From Enteroscipio rubneri (GTDB lineage: Bacteria > Actinomycetota > Coriobacteriia > Coriobacteriales > Eggerthellaceae), in NCBI RefSeq assembly GCF_002899715.1, contig NZ_PPEK01000009.1:1-64000 (forward strand): DNA of 64,000 nt, written 5' to 3'. Below the pieces are notes generated by a model. The model was not told the origin of the DNA. It worked only from the letters and a program-made list of their open reading frames with translations, and did not search any database. The stretch's first letter is position 1. Each line of letters starts with the position of its first letter. The position numbers and the translations under genes were made by a program. Below are positions 29,408 to 37,860 of the stretch, piece by piece.

Positions 29408-29507
29408 TTTTCAATCAGCACTCACCGTATGGGGAGTGACGCTTATCGAGCGCCGTGAGCTCCACGGTACTCGCATTTCAACCCGCACTCCCCGTGTGGG
29501 GAGTGAC
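29408..29507 (-). CRISPR. Two-repeat type I-C mini-array with one spacer
   Basis: Two 33-base repeats, 29475-29507 (leader-proximal) and 29408-29440 (terminal), flank a 34-base spacer at 29441-29474. They match at 28 of 33 positions; on the minus strand the proximal one starts GTCACTCCCC and ends GGGTTGAAAT, the type I-C form with a 5-bp G+C stem. The position 150 bases downstream of cas2, same strand, is the normal place. No further repeat lies at the expected spacing on either side. Confidence 0.85.
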
Positions 29508-29659: not shown

Positions 29660-29950
29660 TTATAAAGCCAAGAACCCTTCGGCTTCGTAGCTCGGCTTCG
29701 CACCAATGTGCTCCACCTTCGTTTGATATTTATTCCCTAGGTAATAGAAGCGCAAGCTGTCTTTATCGGGATCGATCAAATCAACAAGCTCGCCTTTGAT
29801 TTTGACCATCGTCGCCGCATCGGCCACACATTCGAACACCGAGTTCTGAACGCGCTGTCCATAGTTCACGCAGTGCCGAGCCACTTTTCGCAAGCGTCGC
29901 CGGCCTTCAGGATCCTCCGTGTTCACGTCGTACGTAATCACCGTCAGCAT
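29660..29950 (-). CDS. cas2: CRISPR-associated endonuclease Cas2
   Basis: 96 residues, usual length. Starts MLTVITYDVNTEDPEGRRRL with the conserved metal-binding Asp in the first strand, then QNSVFECVADA and RFYYLG. Cas2 dimer bridges two Cas1 dimers for spacer capture. ATG 29950 lies 10 bases after the cas1 stop, with GAGG upstream. It looks intact although its partner cas1 is not. Confidence 0.93.
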   Translation of the reverse strand: MLTVITYDVNTEDPEGRRRLRKVARHCVNYGQRVQNSVFECVADAATMVKIKGELVDLIDPDKDSLRFYYLGNKYQTKVEHIGAKPSYEAEGFLAL

Positions 29951-29960
29951 GGCATGCACC

Positions 29961-30988
29961 TCACTTCCACATAAAGGGAGGATACCCGTCCAAATCGCCT
30001 CGCACGCAACGGGCGAGCAACAAAGCCTGAACATGGGGCACGAGTCCGCGAGGCATTTTTTCCTTCAGGAACGGATGCGTGATGGTTTCCTTCTTCCGCT
30101 CCTGCCACGCGCCGAACAGAATCCTTCTCCCCTCGTCGGTCAGGCGAACCTCGCCCGATTCCCGCTGCTCGAACGCCGAAGAATCCACCGGTTGTTTACG
30201 GCCGAGAGAACGAACCGGTCGACGAACACCGGCCGCAGCTCCTCCATCAAGTCCAGAGCAAGGGAACGCCGTCCTGGCCTATCCGCATGCATGAAGCCAA
30301 CAAAAGGATCGAGGCCCACACCTTCGAGTGCGGACGCACAGTCGAAGGCTAGTACCGTGTAGAACAGCGACAACAGAGCGTTCATCGCATCGGTAGGCGG
30401 CCGCCGCACCCTGCCGCTGAAGCGAAACGTCTCTTTGTCCCTCAGCACCAATTGATCGAAAACACCAAAATACTCCGCCGCCGCATCGCCCTCGATACCG
30501 CGCAAGGAATCCATCGTCTCGCAACTCGTCACGCTACGAAGGGAGGCGCCAAGCTTCGTTGAAGCCGCTTTCACCGCCTCTGCATCGATGCGCAACGCGT
30601 GATCGCGCACGGCCCGCTCGAGGACCCAGCGACCGTTGTATAGCTTGCCGATGATGAAGTTGCGCGCTACGGTCAAGCTCTTGCCCTCGTCCTCCGACCA
30701 TGCGTACTGCGTTTTCCTCAGCAGCACATTGCCGCGCTGCTCACCGTGCACGCCCGCAAGGAAGCGGCCTTTCCGACCGAAGAACGAGAGCGCCACTCCG
30801 CGTTCGGCACAGGCGCCCATGAGGCCTGGGCTGGCACCTCGATACGAGAAGCACAGAATGCCCTCAAGAGTGTGCAGCGGCACACGCCCGAGCTCCGACC
30901 CATCCTTGCGAACAACGACGTTCTCGCCGTCAAGCGTCAGGTACGCATCCTCAGTGAACACATACAGGGTATTGAGCAGATGCCTCAT
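29961..30988 (-). pseudogene. cas1: cas1, frameshifted
   Basis: The N-terminal frame (from ATG 30988, overlapping cas4 by ATGA) gives a normal type I-C Cas1 up to DRFVLS near 30206, then runs into non-Cas1 residues and stops at 30140. The C-terminus continues in another frame: RKQPVDSSAFEQRESGEVRL through to the typical PPFMWK end at 29961. Fusing the frames needs a net gain of 1 or 7 bases and gives about 342-344 residues, the family length. Cas1 is the spacer integrase, so this copy should be non-functional unless the shift is an assembly error. Confidence 0.85.
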
Positions 30989-31647
30989 AGCGCCTCCTCG
31001 GCCAGCCGCTTCGCCACGAACTCCCCAACCGTAGCCCGGTTGATCGCGTGAGGCAGGCAAATATCGCACAGCGAGCACGACCTGCACGCCGCGAACGGCT
31101 TCACCTTCGGCGTGCGCCGGCGCCTGTACAGATCGTGCATCTCCTCAGCCATTGATACCACCGCCGCGCGCAACGCCCCGTCGATCGGCACGCGCTCGCG
31201 CGAGCGCGTCTCGTCGTAGAACAGGCACCCCTCGGGCACATCGGCGCCAAGCATCTCCTCCAGGCACAGCGCCTGAGCGCACAACTGCAACCTATCGGCG
31301 TCGCTCACCTTGCTGCGACCGCGCTTGTACTCCACGGGTACAGCGCGCCAAAGGCCATCCTCCCCCGCGAGAGGATGGCCGCCCGAATCCTTGCGAAACT
31401 CGACAACATCGCACTTCCCCGACAGGCCGAGCGTCCGCGAATGCACTGCCAAACCGCGAACGACGATGGTGTCTCCCCGCCGTTCGCGCAGCTCCTCGTC
31501 ATGGGCCCGTCGGTGCATGAACTCGCCCTCCGCCGTTAGCACGTTGTCATCCCACGCCTGCTCGATGTGGATGAGCGCCCACTGCCGACGGCAGAACGCG
31601 AAGTGCTGGATGCCGGACAGCGCGAGGAACTCGTCCTCGTCGTACAC
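30985..31647 (-). CDS. cas4: CRISPR-associated exonuclease Cas4
   Basis: 220 residues of the type I-C Cas4 form. Cys in HFAFCRRQWALI plus the C-terminal cluster CRSCSLCDIC supply the four Fe-S ligands; a RecB-type nuclease core (VEYKRG) lies between. It trims prespacers and selects the PAM together with Cas1-Cas2. GTG start at 31647, three bases after the cas7 stop; its stop overlaps cas1 by ATGA. Confidence 0.92.
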   Translation of the reverse strand: MYDEDEFLALSGIQHFAFCRRQWALIHIEQAWDDNVLTAEGEFMHRRAHDEELRERRGDTIVVRGLAVHSRTLGLSGKCDVVEFRKDSGGHPLAGEDGLWRAVPVEYKRGRSKVSDADRLQLCAQALCLEEMLGADVPEGCLFYDETRSRERVPIDGALRAAVVSMAEEMHDLYRRRRTPKVKPFAACRSCSLCDICLPHAINRATVGEFVAKRLAEEAL

Positions 31648-31650
31648 CGT

Positions 31651-32544
31651 CTACACCATCCTCAGGACCGTGACCCCCTCGGGAACCACGCTCTCGTCGA
31701 CCGTGATGTCCTCGTAGTCGTCGATCGAGCGCGGAGCCTCCACGCCTTTCTTCTTCTTGGTGGACACGGCATCGAACAGCTTGTACGACGGAGCGTTGCC
31801 CAGCTCGCCATCGTGCTTGAATACCACGAGCGCCCTCACCGCCATCTTGCCGCGTGCTGCCGAGTGGTCGTGCTCGAACATGTTGACGATAGCTTCCCAC
31901 AGAAGCGCAAGGTCATCCTCCGAGAAGCCGGTCGACTTGCGCGCCAGGTTCGCCGAAACGTAGCCCTCACCGCGGTAGAGCGCGTAGGGCACCACGTACT
32001 TGCGGCCCATCTCGGTGCCCTTCTTCTCGGCGTCCGCCTCGGTCGTGATGGCCACACGCGTAATGGTGACCTCCTGGGGGATGATGGGATCGACGCTGCG
32101 TGCAAAGGTCAGCTGCACCGGCCCGCGCACCTGCCCGCAGTTGAGGGCGCCTTTCACGAACGTGGTCATCACCGCGCCGAACGTGCGCACGTCGTAGAAT
32201 GTGCCGCACATGAAGTCGCGAATTTTCTCATCGAGGCTGGGGTCGTCCTTCTTGAGCTTCTTGATATCCTTCGCATCGACGCCGAGCGCTTCGAAGGCGC
32301 GGTTGTCGCTCGTGTTGAGCGCGACACCGTCCTTGATGTAGATGTCGAAGCCTGGTTCGTCTTCCTTCACCGTCTCCACGTAATTGCGGATCTTGCGCTT
32401 CAAGCACACGTCGGTCACGATGCCGTACCCGGTTTCCGGGTCGATGCGCGGCATGTTGCCCGCATCGGGGTCTCCGTTGGGGTTTCCGTTCTCAACATCG
32501 AAGTACACAACGAAATCGTAACGGTTCTTAATGGGGTCTCTCAT
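31651..32544 (-). CDS. cas7: Cascade backbone protein Cas7 (Csd2)
   Basis: 297 residues. Begins RDPIKNRYDFVVYFDVENGNPNGDPD, the Csd2 signature, followed by GYGIVTDVCLKRKIRNY. It polymerises along the crRNA to form the type I-C Cascade backbone. Starts 2 bases after the cas8c stop. Full length and intact. Confidence 0.94.
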   Translation of the reverse strand: MRDPIKNRYDFVVYFDVENGNPNGDPDAGNMPRIDPETGYGIVTDVCLKRKIRNYVETVKEDEPGFDIYIKDGVALNTSDNRAFEALGVDAKDIKKLKKDDPSLDEKIRDFMCGTFYDVRTFGAVMTTFVKGALNCGQVRGPVQLTFARSVDPIIPQEVTITRVAITTEADAEKKGTEMGRKYVVPYALYRGEGYVSANLARKSTGFSEDDLALLWEAIVNMFEHDHSAARGKMAVRALVVFKHDGELGNAPSYKLFDAVSTKKKKGVEAPRSIDDYEDITVDESVVPEGVTVLRMV

Positions 32545-32546
32545 GG

Positions 32547-34334
32547 CTATGCCTCCTGCATCCGGTCGGATTCGGTATCGCGCTTCTCGTAGCGTTTTTG
32601 GTTCTGATGGTAGTATCCCAAGATGAAATCGCCCTGCTCCTCGAGCGAGAGCCGCTTGGGGAACGCGTCAAGCTTGTCGAGCAGCTCCCCGCGCATCTTC
32701 TCGTAATGGACGGCAAGCCCCTTGCTGTCCCGTGCGAGCTTGGCAAGATGCTTGTCGCACAGACCGATCACGATCGGGAAGATCACGCTCGGCGTGGCAC
32801 TGGCCGAATCGTAGTACTTGTTCTTGATGGTCGAATTCAAGCCAGGGCTTGCGGCTTCCTGGATGCTCTCGAGCACCGAGAACAGCCTCCCCAGCACATA
32901 GGGGGCGTCGGAACGCTCTTCGTTCAGTCCCACCGTGACCTCCTCCTCCTCGTTTCGTTTGCAATTCCTTATCAGGTACGCCTTGATGATGGCCGCCCGC
33001 CCGCGCGTCACCTTGTGCGTGCGGCGCTCATCGTCGTCCTGCGAAGCCCGCACGCGCAGTATCGTCTGCTCGAACAGGGCTTCGGGGTAGCGCTGGTCTC
33101 CCAGGATGGAGCGAAGGAGGGCGCCGCCGAGCAGCGACGTGGCGGCCGGCTGCTTCGCATTCGGATTCTCGGTCTCGGCCAGCAAGCGGTACGGCACGAG
33201 GTACTTCTTCTCGTAGGGAGCGCGCACGATGTCGAGCCGCTCGTAGTGCCGGTACAGGTTGTTGAGCATGGCACCGAACGTATCGCGTTGGAAAAAGCGC
33301 ACCGACAGCCGGGCGGCGTTCGGAGCAAGCCCGAGCACGTAGAAGTTCGCATGAGGATCGACCTCCGCGATCGGCAGTCCCTTGGCAAGCCTCTGCATCA
33401 CCGCGTCGATGGCGCGGTCCGGGTCGCCTTTGCCGCCTTTTCTACCTTCAGCATCGCCGTCTCCGGTTTGAGGATTCAAAAAGTCGGACATGATGTCGAC
33501 GCAGGCTTGGTCGTGCTTGTCGGCCCAGTACACCACCGTCGTGTCACCTACCCTCATATGATGCTTGCGATCGGAAAGCAGGTAGTTGAGCGCCGTCGAA
33601 TAAGCGAACGCGGCATACTCGCTCACCGGCGCGTTGAGGCCCTGCTCTTCGTCGTGCCCGTAGGATTCAAATGCCCGCGCGTTGAAACCAACAAGCGAAG
33701 CTCCCATAGCTTGCGCGCCCACGACGCCCTTGATGGCAGGATGCAGCCGAGCAATGGGAGCGTTGTCGCCGGACACGAGGCAGGTCATGACGGCAGCGTC
33801 TTCCGAAGGCTCCCTGCACGCCTTCTCCCAAGCCGAGCAGATGACGGGATCGTCGAGCGCGTTCTTCCCGCCAACCCGGAAGACGAGGTTGCCACCCGCG
33901 AGCAAGACCTCACCCGCATCGGCGACGGCTGCATGCTCGAGCGCCTCTCCAGGATCCCACGTCTCGAAGAAACGCCTGATCGCCGTAGCTGCAGGAGACT
34001 CGAGCTCTCGTAAGAAGGCCAGATGGCGCTCCTTCGCCGCCTCGAAGCACTGCCGAGCACGCTCGGGCTTGCCCTTGGCGTCGATGCCGAGCAGGTAGGT
34101 CGCGTTATCACACAGCAGGTTCGCCGCTACGCCAACCGTGCGTTTCACCTGTTCGGGAACCATCATCGCCCAACCGCGCTTCTCCACAGCCGGAATGACG
34201 TTGACCAGTTCGCCATCGGGCGTCAGCTCGAGCATGAACGCCACCTGGCGCGAACACCACCCGACCCGGGCGATCTTTTCGGGACGCTCCGCGGCGAGCT
34301 GCTCGTAAAAACCAACCAACGCTTGGAGAATCAT
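32547..34334 (-). CDS. cas8c: Cascade large subunit Cas8c (Csd1)
   Basis: 595 residues, normal length for Csd1. Starts MILQALVGFYEQLAAERP and continues in the Csd1 pattern (SAFAYSTALNYLLSDRKH, TVVYWADK). Cas8c recognises the PAM (5'-TTC in studied type I-C systems) and holds the target DNA. In type I-C, an internal start usually yields a separate Cas11c from the 3' end of this gene; I did not pinpoint it. ATG 34334 overlaps the cas5 stop (ATGA), which fixes the start. Confidence 0.93.
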   Translation of the reverse strand: MILQALVGFYEQLAAERPEKIARVGWCSRQVAFMLELTPDGELVNVIPAVEKRGWAMMVPEQVKRTVGVAANLLCDNATYLLGIDAKGKPERARQCFEAAKERHLAFLRELESPAATAIRRFFETWDPGEALEHAAVADAGEVLLAGGNLVFRVGGKNALDDPVICSAWEKACREPSEDAAVMTCLVSGDNAPIARLHPAIKGVVGAQAMGASLVGFNARAFESYGHDEEQGLNAPVSEYAAFAYSTALNYLLSDRKHHMRVGDTTVVYWADKHDQACVDIMSDFLNPQTGDGDAEGRKGGKGDPDRAIDAVMQRLAKGLPIAEVDPHANFYVLGLAPNAARLSVRFFQRDTFGAMLNNLYRHYERLDIVRAPYEKKYLVPYRLLAETENPNAKQPAATSLLGGALLRSILGDQRYPEALFEQTILRVRASQDDDERRTHKVTRGRAAIIKAYLIRNCKRNEEEEVTVGLNEERSDAPYVLGRLFSVLESIQEAASPGLNSTIKNKYYDSASATPSVIFPIVIGLCDKHLAKLARDSKGLAVHYEKMRGELLDKLDAFPKRLSLEEQGDFILGYYHQNQKRYEKRDTESDRMQEA

Positions 34335-34996
34335 CGGAACACCTCGCTTCCCGCCACGTCGATCACGCCGCCGCGCATGACCGCACGGAAGAACATCGGC
34401 GTGATGTTCTTCGGGTCGCTGTAATCCATGTCGTACAACATGAGGCCGAGATCCTTCTCGCCGTCCGACGCATAGCAGCCCTGGGGCGATTGCGGCCCCT
34501 CCCACGCTTTGAAATGCGCCGGAAACTCGCGCGTTCCGAAATAGGGCATCGAGTAGCACTGGCCCCGTTCGAGCCTTCGCCTGATGATATCCTTGAACTT
34601 ACCAGGGTTGTCCTCGGGCATCGCCTTGTCGGTGAGATCAAAGTGCGCCTCTATCACGTAGCGGACGTTGATGAGGATGAGCGACGCTCTCTGCTGGATA
34701 TCGTCTTTCGTATTGATATAGGGAAGCTTGCCGCCCCCGGTCACCGCCGTGCGCATGGTGCTGGCGAGCGCCTTCGATTTCACCTCGTTGCGACGCACGT
34801 TCGTGAATTGGATGGGATTGAGCACGTGGATGCGGTCGATGCTGTAGCGCATGCCCGGGTGCCAGTAGATGCTTTCGAGCAGCCCTCTTGCGGCGCTGGG
34901 GGTCATCGCGTCGTACGACACGCGCTCCACCGAAAGCTCCGGACGCGTGAACAGCGCCCGATCGCCCCACACCTCAACTTGAATGCCGTAAGCCAT
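34331..34996 (-). CDS. cas5c: Cas5c, crRNA-processing endoribonuclease
   Basis: 221 residues; MAYGIQVEVWGDRALFTRPE is the type I-C Cas5 start, and SIYWHPGMRYSIDRIHVL is the conserved middle. In type I-C there is no Cas6; Cas5c cuts the repeat stem and stays on the crRNA 5' handle. GGAGG precedes the ATG. Separated from cas3 by 155 bases, so a second promoter is possible there. Confidence 0.94.
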   Translation of the reverse strand: MAYGIQVEVWGDRALFTRPELSVERVSYDAMTPSAARGLLESIYWHPGMRYSIDRIHVLNPIQFTNVRRNEVKSKALASTMRTAVTGGGKLPYINTKDDIQQRASLILINVRYVIEAHFDLTDKAMPEDNPGKFKDIIRRRLERGQCYSMPYFGTREFPAHFKAWEGPQSPQGCYASDGEKDLGLMLYDMDYSDPKNITPMFFRAVMRGGVIDVAGSEVFR

Positions 34997-35151: not shown

Positions 35152-37383
35152 TCAGAAAAAAAGACCCTTCCCTCCCGCATCCGATGCGTCGAGTCCCGTG
35201 TCCTCGCGATACAGGCTCGGATCGACCAGCTCGTAGGTATCCCCGTCCAACAGCCTGACGGCACCTGCGCGCTGCAGCACTTTGAGGTCGTTGTCGTACA
35301 AGCCCACCGAATAACGCGCCACGCGGCGCATCGACCCTCGCGTGCCCGTCCCTGCGCGGAGGTCGCGAAGCTCCTGGTATATCGCAGGGTCGGGAACGAT
35401 GACGGAATGGGACCCGTCCTCGATCATGCGGAAGCGGCCGGCGGCATCCTTGAAGGGGATGAGGGGGATCGGCCTGTCCTTATGGAACTCCGCTCGATCG
35501 ATCTCCGTAAGGTCCCCGAGTACCCCTTCGGCATCGAGCCGGTCGGCGCGCAGCTCGTGCAGCTGATCGAAATACGATGCGATCGCCTCAAGCGAGCCGA
35601 TGTCGCACGGGACGCCCTCGCTTTCGGCCCCAGCGTTCTCAAGGCTGACGCCTATCCCGAGCAGTATGGACCGGGCGATCGAGCACTTCTGGGCGGTGTC
35701 GTTCGGAATACCGTACGACGTTTTCGGATCGAACAGATACACGATGCTCTCGCAGGCAGGGCGTTTCCCTTCGCGGTTGCACCGGCCGGCACACTGCACC
35801 ATGCTGTCCACGCCGGCGAGCGCGCGGTACACGACGGGAAAATCGACGTCGACGCCGACCTCGATCAAGCTCGTGGCGATTACCCTGCAAGCCTTCCCCG
35901 CGGCCAGCCGACGACGGATTGCAGCGAGCGCCCTTTCCCGATGCGCCGGATGCATGAGCGTCGACAGATGGTAGACGCCTCCGTCGTCGCCCAGCTCCCT
36001 GCGCGCCGAATCGTACAGGGCCTTCGCCTGCTTGCGGCTGTTGACGACGCATAGCGCCTGCTTGTGCGATGCTAACCTGTCGGCGAGCGCCTCGTCTTCG
36101 ATCTTTCCGACGAAGCGATACTCCGTTCGACGCAAACGCTCGTACAGGGCTTGCGGCTCATGAGCGATCTCGCGCACCGGACATCCGTACGAGGCGAACA
36201 TCTCGCCGAGTGACGGCTGGGTCGCCGTGCACAGCACCACCGTGCATCCGTAACGGTGGACCAGCTCGGCCAACGCCCGCACGCAGGGTAGCAGCTGCTT
36301 CGTCGGGAGCATCTGCGCTTCATCAAGTACGATCACACTATTCGCGATATTGTGCAGCTTGCGGCAACGCGACGTCTTGTTGGCATACAGCGATTCGAAG
36401 AGTTGGACGTTGGTCGTGACCACGATGGGCGCGTCCCAGTTCTCCGTCGCGAGGCGCAGCATTCCGCCGTCCTCGCCCGCATTGTCGAAGTCGAAGTTGC
36501 CATGATGCTCGAGCACGTTGTTCGCGCCGACCACTTCACGAAACACCTCGGCGTTCTGCTCGATGATCGACGTGAAGGGCACCGCGTAGATGACGCGCCG
36601 CATGTCGTGGCCCTCGGCGAGGGCATGGCGCAGAGCGAAACGCAGCGACGCGTACGTCTTCCCGCCGCCGGTGGGAACCGTGAGCGAGAAAACGCCCGGA
36701 GCATCCGATGCCGCTTCGGCGCACGCATCCAAAATGGCACAACGCGTTTTGTTGAGCTCGCCTCGAGGAGGGTAAAACGATTGGACCTTGCGTTCAAGAC
36801 GCTCGTTTAACACCTCGAGCGGATCGGTGGCCATAAGCTCGCGCGGCGACCCCGCCATGAAGCACTCCGTGCTGAGAAAGTCGGCATCGACCAGACACGA
36901 GAACACCATGCGCGTCAGGAAGGCGAGCGAGAAGGGATCAAAGTGGGTCATGTTGTCGAAAACGACTGATTCCGCTTTGGGCAGCTCGATCTCGCGTGCA
37001 TAAGCGCGATAGTCGGGAAGCTCGTGATGTTCCGCTTTGCGCAAGCGTCCTATCAGCGTCGGGCCTTCGAGTTCGGCGAGCGAGCCGCCGTCGGGCAAAC
37101 CGCCGTGGTGACCGGCGACACAAAAAGAGAGCGGGAGCAATCCAGCCTGCTCGTAGAGTTCGTAGGCCCCTGCCGTGGAGTGGTCGACCTTGTGTCCCTC
37201 GCGGAGGATGCGGTTCTGGAACTCCGCAGAGTACTTTCCGATATCGTGGGCCATACCCGCCAGGTACGCCCACTTTTCAGCTCCGAACGGGCGCGCGAAC
37301 TCCGCCGCCATCTCGGCCACCTCGCGCAAATGGTCGACCACTCTTTCGATGCGTCCGTCCTCGGAAACATGGGAGACGTACAT
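35152..37383 (-). CDS. cas3: Cas3 nuclease-helicase
   Basis: 743 residues. N-terminal HD nuclease (AGMAHDIGKYSAEFQ, near residue 45) and SF2 helicase (VPTGGGKTYASLRFA; VLDEAQML; SLIEVGVDVDFPVVYR; QCAGRCNREG). It degrades DNA once Cascade has bound. ATG 37383 is chosen over TTG 37389 because AGGAGG sits 7 bases upstream of it. Reads intact. Confidence 0.94.
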   Translation of the reverse strand: MYVSHVSEDGRIERVVDHLREVAEMAAEFARPFGAEKWAYLAGMAHDIGKYSAEFQNRILREGHKVDHSTAGAYELYEQAGLLPLSFCVAGHHGGLPDGGSLAELEGPTLIGRLRKAEHHELPDYRAYAREIELPKAESVVFDNMTHFDPFSLAFLTRMVFSCLVDADFLSTECFMAGSPRELMATDPLEVLNERLERKVQSFYPPRGELNKTRCAILDACAEAASDAPGVFSLTVPTGGGKTYASLRFALRHALAEGHDMRRVIYAVPFTSIIEQNAEVFREVVGANNVLEHHGNFDFDNAGEDGGMLRLATENWDAPIVVTTNVQLFESLYANKTSRCRKLHNIANSVIVLDEAQMLPTKQLLPCVRALAELVHRYGCTVVLCTATQPSLGEMFASYGCPVREIAHEPQALYERLRRTEYRFVGKIEDEALADRLASHKQALCVVNSRKQAKALYDSARRELGDDGGVYHLSTLMHPAHRERALAAIRRRLAAGKACRVIATSLIEVGVDVDFPVVYRALAGVDSMVQCAGRCNREGKRPACESIVYLFDPKTSYGIPNDTAQKCSIARSILLGIGVSLENAGAESEGVPCDIGSLEAIASYFDQLHELRADRLDAEGVLGDLTEIDRAEFHKDRPIPLIPFKDAAGRFRMIEDGSHSVIVPDPAIYQELRDLRAGTGTRGSMRRVARYSVGLYDNDLKVLQRAGAVRLLDGDTYELVDPSLYREDTGLDASDAGGKGLFF

Positions 37384-37478
37384 GTTCAAGCCTCCTGTTC
37401 AACTTATCGAGTGGGTCAAGTCTGAAAATCGGCAATATGTCAATGCCTCATACTTGCAGCAATGCGCCAGAAATAAGC

Positions 37479-37496: not shown

Positions 37497-37530
37497 GGTG
37501 AAGACGAAGGCTACCACCTCCGTCTTCACC
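37497..37530. repeat. Stable hairpin between the small ORF and cas3
   Basis: A 10-bp stem GGTGAAGACG/CGTCTTCACC extended by AGG/CCT after one mismatch, with loop CTACCA. It could be an attenuator of the cas3 leader on the minus strand or the 5' hairpin of an antisense RNA on plus. No T run follows on either strand. Confidence 0.6.
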
Positions 37531-37538
37531 ACTTCTGA

Positions 37539-37637
37539 TTAGCTGGTTCGGAGAAGATTCGTGAATTCTTGAATGAGGAAAACAATCTCTCTGACCAGCT
37601 TTACCAGCCTTTCCGCAAATCCTACCAGCTTTTCCAT
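37539..37637 (-). CDS. 32-codon ORF with strong ribosome site upstream of cas3 (candidate CreT-like toxin or leader peptide)
   Basis: ATG 37637 is preceded by AGGAGG 4 bases upstream. The peptide starts MEKLVGFAERLVKLVREIVF and ends NLLRTS, with hydrophobic residues every third or fourth position, so it should form an amphipathic cationic helix, like small membrane-active toxins. Arg codons AGG (10) and AGA (16) are rare types here. It lies 155 bases upstream of cas3 on the same strand, behind its own promoter. Translation is likely from the ribosome site; toxicity is inference. Confidence 0.55.
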   Translation of the reverse strand: MEKLVGFAERLVKLVREIVFLIQEFTNLLRTS

Positions 37638-37710: not shown

Positions 37711-37739
37711 ATCGTAACATATCAATAAATAGCATTCAA
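37711..37739 (-). promoter_or_regulatory. Promoter of the small ORF and probably of cas3
   Basis: On minus: TTGAAT (37739-37734), a 17-base spacer and TACGAT (37716-37711), start near 37704, 67 bases before the small ORF. I see no better promoter between here and cas3, so it may drive the whole cas operon. Confidence 0.5.
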
Positions 37740-37747
37740 TGATTTGT
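37735..37747 (+). promoter_or_regulatory. PAM plus seed match of the CRISPR-like RNA at the small-ORF promoter
   Basis: TTC (37735-37737) followed by AATGATTTGT. The predicted guide starts AATGAGTTGT, so 9 of 10 bases match; the mismatch is at position 6, the base that type I Cascades flip out and do not read. The site covers the -35 of the promoter. Confidence 0.55.
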
Positions 37748-37789
37748 TATAAGGATACAGCCGGCTGATGCCGGCTGTATCCTTATAAC
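37746..37789. repeat. Perfect 20-bp hairpin
   Basis: Arm GTTATAAGGATACAGCCGGC (37746-37765), loop TGAT, exact complement at 37770-37789. It starts 17 bases into the predicted guide of the CRISPR-like RNA, so it may end or stabilise that RNA. No T run follows, so it is not a standard terminator. Confidence 0.8.
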
Positions 37790-37807
37790 ATCCTTGTACA
37801 ACTCATT

Positions 37808-37833
37808 GTTTCAATCCACGCGTTTCACGCGAC
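37808..37833 (-). repeat. Solitary shortened CRISPR-repeat-like element (psi-repeat)
   Basis: On minus it starts GTCGCGTGAAACGCG and ends TGGATTGAAAC. It keeps the type I-C repeat ends (GTCRC and the ATTGAAAC handle, as in the array repeats here), but the internal hairpin is cut to CGCGT-GAA-ACGCG and the length is 26 instead of 33. Cas5c should still be able to recognise a stem followed by this handle (inference). Same orientation as the cas genes. Confidence 0.7.
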
Positions 37834-37839
37834 ATGAAC

Positions 37840-37845
37840 ATTCTA
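37840..37845 (-). promoter_or_regulatory. -10 element in front of the psi-repeat
   Basis: TAGAAT on minus; start would fall at about 37833, exactly the first base of the psi-repeat. The -35 region is weak (TTTATT). Confidence 0.45.
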
Positions 37846-37846
37846 A

Positions 37847-37860
37847 TTCAATGAGTTGTA
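37847..37860 (+). promoter_or_regulatory. PAM plus 11-base seed match at the psi-repeat's own promoter
   Basis: TTC (37847-37849) followed by AATGAGTTGTA (37850-37860), identical to the first 11 bases after the psi-repeat handle. Complementarity then largely ends. It sits between the -10 and -35 of the predicted promoter. Confidence 0.55.

Follow-up and report, generated by a model that had tools for sequence, protein, structure and literature searches.

A solo repeat with a short guide upstream of cas3: candidate Cascade-guided repression in cas6-less type I-C CRISPR loci

Upstream of cas3 in a type I-C CRISPR locus of Enteroscipio rubneri, a solo degenerate repeat is followed by a short guide and a hairpin, and the guide matches two TTC-flanked sites in its own neighborhood. 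Because unrelated bacteria have the same layout with different sequences, the immune complex probably serves as a gene repressor, and we consider Cascade-guided repression as such, in which I-C Cascade with its guide acts on a gene, to be likely. Judged from its sequence, the element is of the CreR/CreTA kind of RNA-guided repression, here in a cas6-less type I-C system.

Guide element and target sites in the window

The window (the whole stretch analyzed, 64,000 nucleotides of contig NZ_PPEK01000009.1) contains on its minus strand a full type I-C operon in the order cas3-cas5c-cas8c-cas7c-cas4-cas1-cas2 (Table 1); both this gene set and the absence of cas6 place it in type I-C. The main array is minimal although every cas gene looks intact, its last repeat is degenerate, and its repeat has no copies elsewhere in the genome. 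Upstream of cas3, the minus strand carries, in this order, TAGAAT, the solo repeat, the guide, a 21-bp hairpin, TTGAAT-N17-TACGAT, a 32-codon open reading frame (ORF), a 15-bp hairpin, and cas3.

Table 1. Features of the type I-C locus and the guide element in the window
Feature	Position	Strand	Basis or remark
cas4, cas1, cas2	29660..31647	-	
Main array	29409..29507	-	2 repeats and 1 spacer of 35 nt; downstream of the cas operon
cas7c/csd2	31651..32544	-	TIGR02589, 4.8e-102
cas8c/csd1	32547..34559	-	TIGR01863, 1.2e-139
cas5c	34331..34996	-	TIGR01876, 2.5e-47
cas3	35152..37389	-	TIGR01587, TIGR01596
15-bp hairpin	37497..37530	-	Possible terminator right after the small ORF; -27.7 kcal/mol; overlapping terminator-like stem 37509-37493
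Small ORF MEKLVGFAERLVKLVREIVFLIQEFTNLLRTS	37539..37637	-	32 codons; strong Shine-Dalgarno sequence AAAGGAGG
Promoter-like TTGAAT-N17-TACGAT under site a	37711..37739	-	From sequence; reads toward the 32-codon ORF and cas3
Site a, TTC (37735-37737) and AATGATTTGT (37738-37747)	37735..37747	+	
21-bp perfect hairpin	37745..37790	-	End of the putative guide RNA; terminator-like, no T-run; -37.6 kcal/mol
Single-stranded guide part AATGAGTTGTACAAGGA	37791..37807	-	17 nt, after which the hairpin starts
Solo degenerate I-C repeat GTTCATGTCGCGTGAAACGCGTGGATTGAAAC	37808..37839	-	7-bp stem ahead of the handle
TAGAAT, -10-like, putative guide gene	37840..37845	-	From sequence; adjoins the solo repeat
Site b, TTC and AATGAGTTGTA	37847..37860	+	11/11 to guide positions 1-11

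The solo repeat folds at -10.4 kcal/mol (z -2.0) and ends with the handle GTGGATTGAAAC, directly after which the guide begins (position 1 at 37807); on the minus strand it reads AATGAGTTGTACAAGGATGT..., with the seed region AATGAGTTGT. Thus, as in CreTA systems, an ectopic degenerate repeat with a spacer-like guide lies near the cas genes. The arms of the palindrome (37745-37765 and 37770-37790) place site a and the guide face to face, and the fold of the whole guide element reaches z -10.1. The TAGAAT motif also occurs a few nucleotides ahead of the repeat stem in three other loci (L023, L036, and L041); no good -35 was found for the predicted guide-gene promoter. A search of Rfam gave nothing beyond a CRISPR repeat below threshold and weak miRNA-like matches at the palindrome. 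An origin of the guide element from a MITE or insertion sequence was rejected, as there is neither a second genomic copy nor a plasmid match.

Site a pairs with the guide at 9/9 of positions 1-5 and 7-10 and is mismatched at positions 6 (G vs T) and 11 (A vs T). A sequence-only reading of the same DNA had described this site as a seed match with position 6 as its single mismatch, lying on a -35. Within positions 1-10 the sequence agrees, and the overlapped -35 is TTGAAT (37739-37734), separated by 17 nt from TACGAT (37716-37711). That reading had also called the effective match complete; the tolerance of position 6 is borne out by the comparison of loci below, whereas completeness fails at position 11. 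Several relatives' sites likewise reach only 9/10. With 8/12 bases of consensus, the promoter at site a falls under the threshold of the promoter scan and was not called, and it may be regarded as a plausible predicted promoter. Of the earlier assignment to both the small ORF and cas3, the direction toward the ORF holds, but the 15-bp hairpin between them makes it uncertain whether cas3 shares the transcript of the ORF.

The match at site a is not a chance match, as had been presumed before any calculation. We scored the best TTC-flanked site in each of 3000 dinucleotide shuffles of the 609-bp neighborhood: agreement of at least 9/10 over positions 1-5 and 7-11 was reached in 5/3000 and of 10/10 in 0/3000. 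Moreover, TTCAATGAKTTGT has exactly two occurrences in the 2.83-Mb genome, sites a and b, and TTCAATGA[G/T]TTGT also has exactly two copies genome-wide (2.83 Mb). Site a thus provides, at 9/10, the PAM-flanked seed complementarity to a predicted partner promoter that is known from CreTA. Site b, the better match, covers the guide's own predicted promoter just upstream of its -10; neither this site nor the 21-bp palindrome had appeared in the sequence-only reading.

Recurrence across type I-C loci and the pairing signature

Regions upstream of cas3 were compared in 43 loci with cas5c, drawn from 397 genomes of the order, in 16 other Actinomycetota loci, and in 80 loci across bacteria; the last were found by Cas7c, which was used instead of a Cas3-pattern scan of genome contigs that yielded no loci. 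The guide element is present in 22 loci, 16 in the order (window included) and 6 outside it, namely, in a Desulfoluna metagenome-assembled genome (MAG; L106), Cohnella terricola (L149), Paenibacillus agri (L152), P. helianthi (L166), Eubacterium aggregans (L160), and a member of the Lachnospiraceae (L168). The 21 carriers other than the window span Coriobacteriia, Paenibacillaceae, Clostridia, and the Desulfoluna MAG; by the same method, the element was found in 0/16 I-C loci of Actinomycetota outside the order. Carriers share a solo repeat, a short guide, and a hairpin, and the guide matches a TTC-flanked site upstream of the carrier's own cas3 (in L032 the PAM is TTT). L032 and L036, the latter with a variant handle, were added by eye past the automatic filter, and the conclusion is the same without both.

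Guides and sites fit within loci and not between them. Own guide-site pairs agree at 9-10/10 behind TTC in 15/16 order-level loci, compared with at least 9/10 in 2/240 when guides were set against the regions of other loci. Because the guides differ between loci, this indicates repeated covariation and not sequence conservation. Likewise, at least 9/10 was reached by 14/24 and 6/7 of the candidate starts that carry a repeat handle and by 0/69 and 0/101 of the control TTGAA motifs without one. The handle-bearing order-level starts that lack a match are mostly repeats belonging to true arrays of L040 and L054.

Solo repeats retain a GG[A/G]TTGAAA handle, with one variant, GGATAGAAA, in L036. The stem just ahead of the handle folds in most of them and weakly in several, and a stable hairpin lies 14-26 nt past the guide start in 22/22 loci. 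The guides therefore look like one-repeat RNAs ended by a hairpin and not like 35-nt spacers between two repeats. Upstream of cas3 in three further loci from other Actinomycetota (L072, L074, and L078) there are repeat-like stems ending GCGAGG[AT]T(T/C), possibly solo repeats with another handle.

For an independent view of the pairing, it should be considered that positions 1-5 and 7-11 were used for site selection, so that agreement there is partly by construction, whereas positions 6 and 12-20 are independent of it; the loci are also partly non-independent (e.g., L152 and L166), and the counts are not exact probabilities. Position 6 agrees in 2/22 loci (cross-locus background, 0.24) and position 12 in 6/22 (0.25), while positions 13, 14, 15, and 16 agree in 18, 18, 12, and 13 of 22 (background, 0.42, 0.26, 0.23, and 0.30), and agreement decays to background by positions 17-20. 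Pairing that skips positions 6 and 12 yet resumes after each of them is characteristic of Cascade and would be foreign to an ordinary stem of RNA or DNA. A selected mismatch at position 6 was considered and dropped, since 2/22 against a background of 0.24 (P = 0.08) indicates neutrality only. In the Halobacterium hubeiense CreA, the seed consists of positions 1-5 and 7-11 with a TTC PAM, and positions 6 and 12 are dispensable (PMC8501985). For one published CreA, pairing at position 11 is indispensable; at site a this position is unpaired. The PAM-flanked, position-6-tolerant Cascade seed match that had been proposed for the window alone recurs with the same 1-5/7-11 pattern and different guides in the 21 other loci.

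In the cas3 tree, the element occurs in 14/20 rows of one well-supported clade, whereas the window is the sole carrier among the 16 rows of its own clade, so that orthologous conservation of the exact element is not demonstrable there. Because the window stands alone in this way, and because L046 (60% identity in cas3) shares the upstream Nudix neighbor but not the element, the window's element was probably gained separately. L047, the closest cas3 relative of the window, has in place of the guide element a dyad, AGTGTATC-N11-GATACACT, at about -420 to -385 from cas3, with a small basic ORF downstream of it. In addition, several Coriobacteriia I-C loci have a TGTCCC-N6-GGGACA-like palindrome upstream of cas3 (L046, -138; L047, -98; L055, -114; L061, -76; L062, -82; L063, -89; L032, -86), which fits at 10-11/12 bases, is rare in shuffles, and resembles an operator through which a conventional regulator would control cas3; it is absent from the window.

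Proposed mechanism and competing explanations

We propose that the solo repeat and guide make up a small gene encoding a crRNA-like RNA with a regulatory role, which, if transcribed, would be processed by Cas5c at its stem-loop repeat into the usual handle, a guide of about 17 nt, and a 3' hairpin. I-C Cascade loaded with this guide would bind TTC-flanked sites by seed pairing alone. At site b it would cover the guide's own promoter (positions 1-11), and at site a the small-ORF promoter (positions 1-5 and 7-10). As the guide is short, complementarity stops early, which should prevent cutting by Cas3, and Cascade would repress instead. Upon loss, titration, or inhibition of Cascade, the most likely outcome would be that the small amphipathic peptide is switched on and guide synthesis rises; the circuit would then act as an addiction or alarm module, and transcription might read through into cas3. 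Against Cascade-guided repression count the unpaired position 11 of site a, the poor consensus fit of the promoter there, the window's standing as sole carrier in its cas3 clade, and the fact that the similarity between guide and site is partly continuous with the palindrome.

The product of the small ORF is a predicted amphipathic helix (core hydrophobic moment, 0.53; shuffle P = 0.003), and no homologs were found in 138 genomes of the family. CreT of CreTA acts as an RNA with a mini-ORF, for example one with tandem rare codons; the window's ORF contains AGG and AGA codons, though not in tandem, and its toxin, if any, may be a peptide. That the ORF encodes a toxin is a guess from this predicted shape, with chances slightly short of even. 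We hold more tentatively to a complete cas6-less I-C addiction circuit, in which one guide would repress its own promoter (11/11) as well as the promoter of an amphipathic peptide toxin (9/10). If true, such a dual-promoter circuit would limit its own antitoxin level and set the toxin free upon inhibition of Cascade.

Five loci have a small ORF after the site (the window, L032, L062, L063, and L106). Those of L032 and L063 encode basic peptides of 28-29 amino acids that are homologous to each other and not to the window's. L106 (2351-2482), from another phylum, has an ORF unrelated to the window's ahead of cas3, for a 43-amino-acid hydrophobic, membrane-type peptide, and its guide has two TTC-flanked targets, on a dual-site plan like the window's; in both, an additional site lies over the promoter of the guide itself. 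In L062, a gene for a 55-amino-acid HTH_17 protein lies between the guide target and cas3 (-268 to -100), and the guide there may repress a transcription factor.

It is a serious possibility, though one we put somewhat below even, that the guide is of the CreR type: the cas operon would be the real target, the small ORF a leader peptide or noise, and the promoter at site a would drive cas3 by read-through. Such a circuit would tune the level of Cascade to crRNA supply, and it differs from our proposal on the target and not on guidance by Cascade. CreRs are described for types I-B, I-E, and V-A (PMC13131331). In most of the 21 relatives (L023, L026, L028, L029, L033-L036, L038, L149, L152, L160, L166, and others), about 25-150 bp separate the site from cas3, and no clear gene lies in this interval; by their layout most relatives look like plain CreR. 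In the window, however, a strong Shine-Dalgarno sequence, a 32-codon ORF, and a 15-bp hairpin separate the promoter from cas3, and the Eggerthellaceae relatives L032, L062, and L063, which also have an intervening small ORF, carry the separate TGTCCC-N6-GGGACA-like operator closer to cas3 and thus seem to have an independent promoter for this gene. For the window, the small ORF and its trailing hairpin favor a CreTA-like partner gene, with read-through to cas3 possible.

The remaining explanations dispense with Cascade-guided repression. If a long hairpin, as a terminator or DNA element, were what is selected, guide-site pairing would be its by-product and Cascade would not be involved. Indeed, a single long hairpin (z -10) is predicted for 37722-37807, and in all Coriobacteriales loci site and guide are in inverted orientation to each other. 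But a stem needs neither an outside TTC nor systematic mismatches at 6 and 12; guide and site lie on the same strand in L106, L149, L152, L160, L166, and L168, where no mutual hairpin can form; and site b lies upstream of the repeat. We regard this explanation as quite unlikely.

A decayed-array remnant, in which a self-derived spacer accidentally targeted its own genome and is now non-functional, would fit the minimal two-repeat array of the window and the degenerate solo repeat. Yet a full-length match to its source would be expected of a spacer acquired from the chromosome, whereas complementarity ends near positions 11-16 in almost all loci, and the hairpin follows the short guide in 22/22, which makes such a remnant very unlikely. 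Hardly credible is an ordinary regulator's direct-repeat operator at 37734 and 37846 (ATTCAATGAKTTGT, 14 nt, copies 112 bp apart) that occurs in the guide incidentally, since the start of a third copy coincides with guide position 1, just behind the repeat handle, and the relatives' sequences differ by locus yet always fit their own guide.

Significance and comparison with known systems

Repression of the CreR/CreTA kind has been described for types I-B, I-E, I-F, and V-A, and creTA around cas6 or in I-F (PMC10097628). If our reading is correct, RNA-guided self-repression by CRISPR effectors extends to the common cas6-less subtype I-C in at least three phyla. A search rule that combines a solo repeat handle, a guide of 14-26 nt, a hairpin, and a TTC-flanked 1-5/7-11 match may lead to more finds, and the position-6/-12 signature in 22 natural guide-target pairs would offer an evolutionary readout of base pairing by Cascade. 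Small ORFs so controlled are candidate toxins that retain CRISPR systems in genomes or sense anti-CRISPRs. Because Coriobacteriia carriers include Gordonibacter, Olsenella, and Collinsella and genetic tools have recently been built for this class (PMC9734109), the idea is open to testing. We found no account of such repression in type I-C in the literature; the main CreR paper lay outside the search, so that priority for I-C is uncertain.

The window shares with CreTA (H. hubeiense I-B and Acinetobacter I-F) a degenerate ectopic repeat near cas genes (PMC8501985, PMC10097628), guide pairing at positions 1-5 and 7-11 beside a promoter TTC PAM (I-B), and a small ORF with a Shine-Dalgarno sequence downstream of the target. 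It differs in four respects: (i) it is of type I-C and lacks cas6, whereas earlier creTA modules were found around cas6 (PMC10097628); (ii) it has one repeat and a hairpin where CreTA usually has two repeats; (iii) a second target lies over the guide's own promoter; and (iv) its 32-codon ORF is predicted to be amphipathic and has no tandem rare codons. The Haloarcula hispanica CreA likewise has a single repeat and a guide ended by a terminator (PMC8501985) but belongs to an archaeal I-B system and is processed by Cas6.

With CreR, the element has in common a crRNA-like RNA of limited complementarity to a promoter region upstream of cas genes, a position that is clear for most relatives, whereas the window has a small ORF and a hairpin between site a and cas3. 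With CrePA, it would have in common that a guide represses a distinct protein-coding gene and that anti-CRISPRs would lift the repression; CreP is typically a KilA-N protein (PMC12737573), whereas the window's ORF has no Pfam match and hence does not qualify as CreP. CreTA, CreR, and CrePA being already known, what appears to be new here is the subtype I-C, the combination of one repeat with a hairpin, the recurrence across phyla, and the sometimes dual targets.
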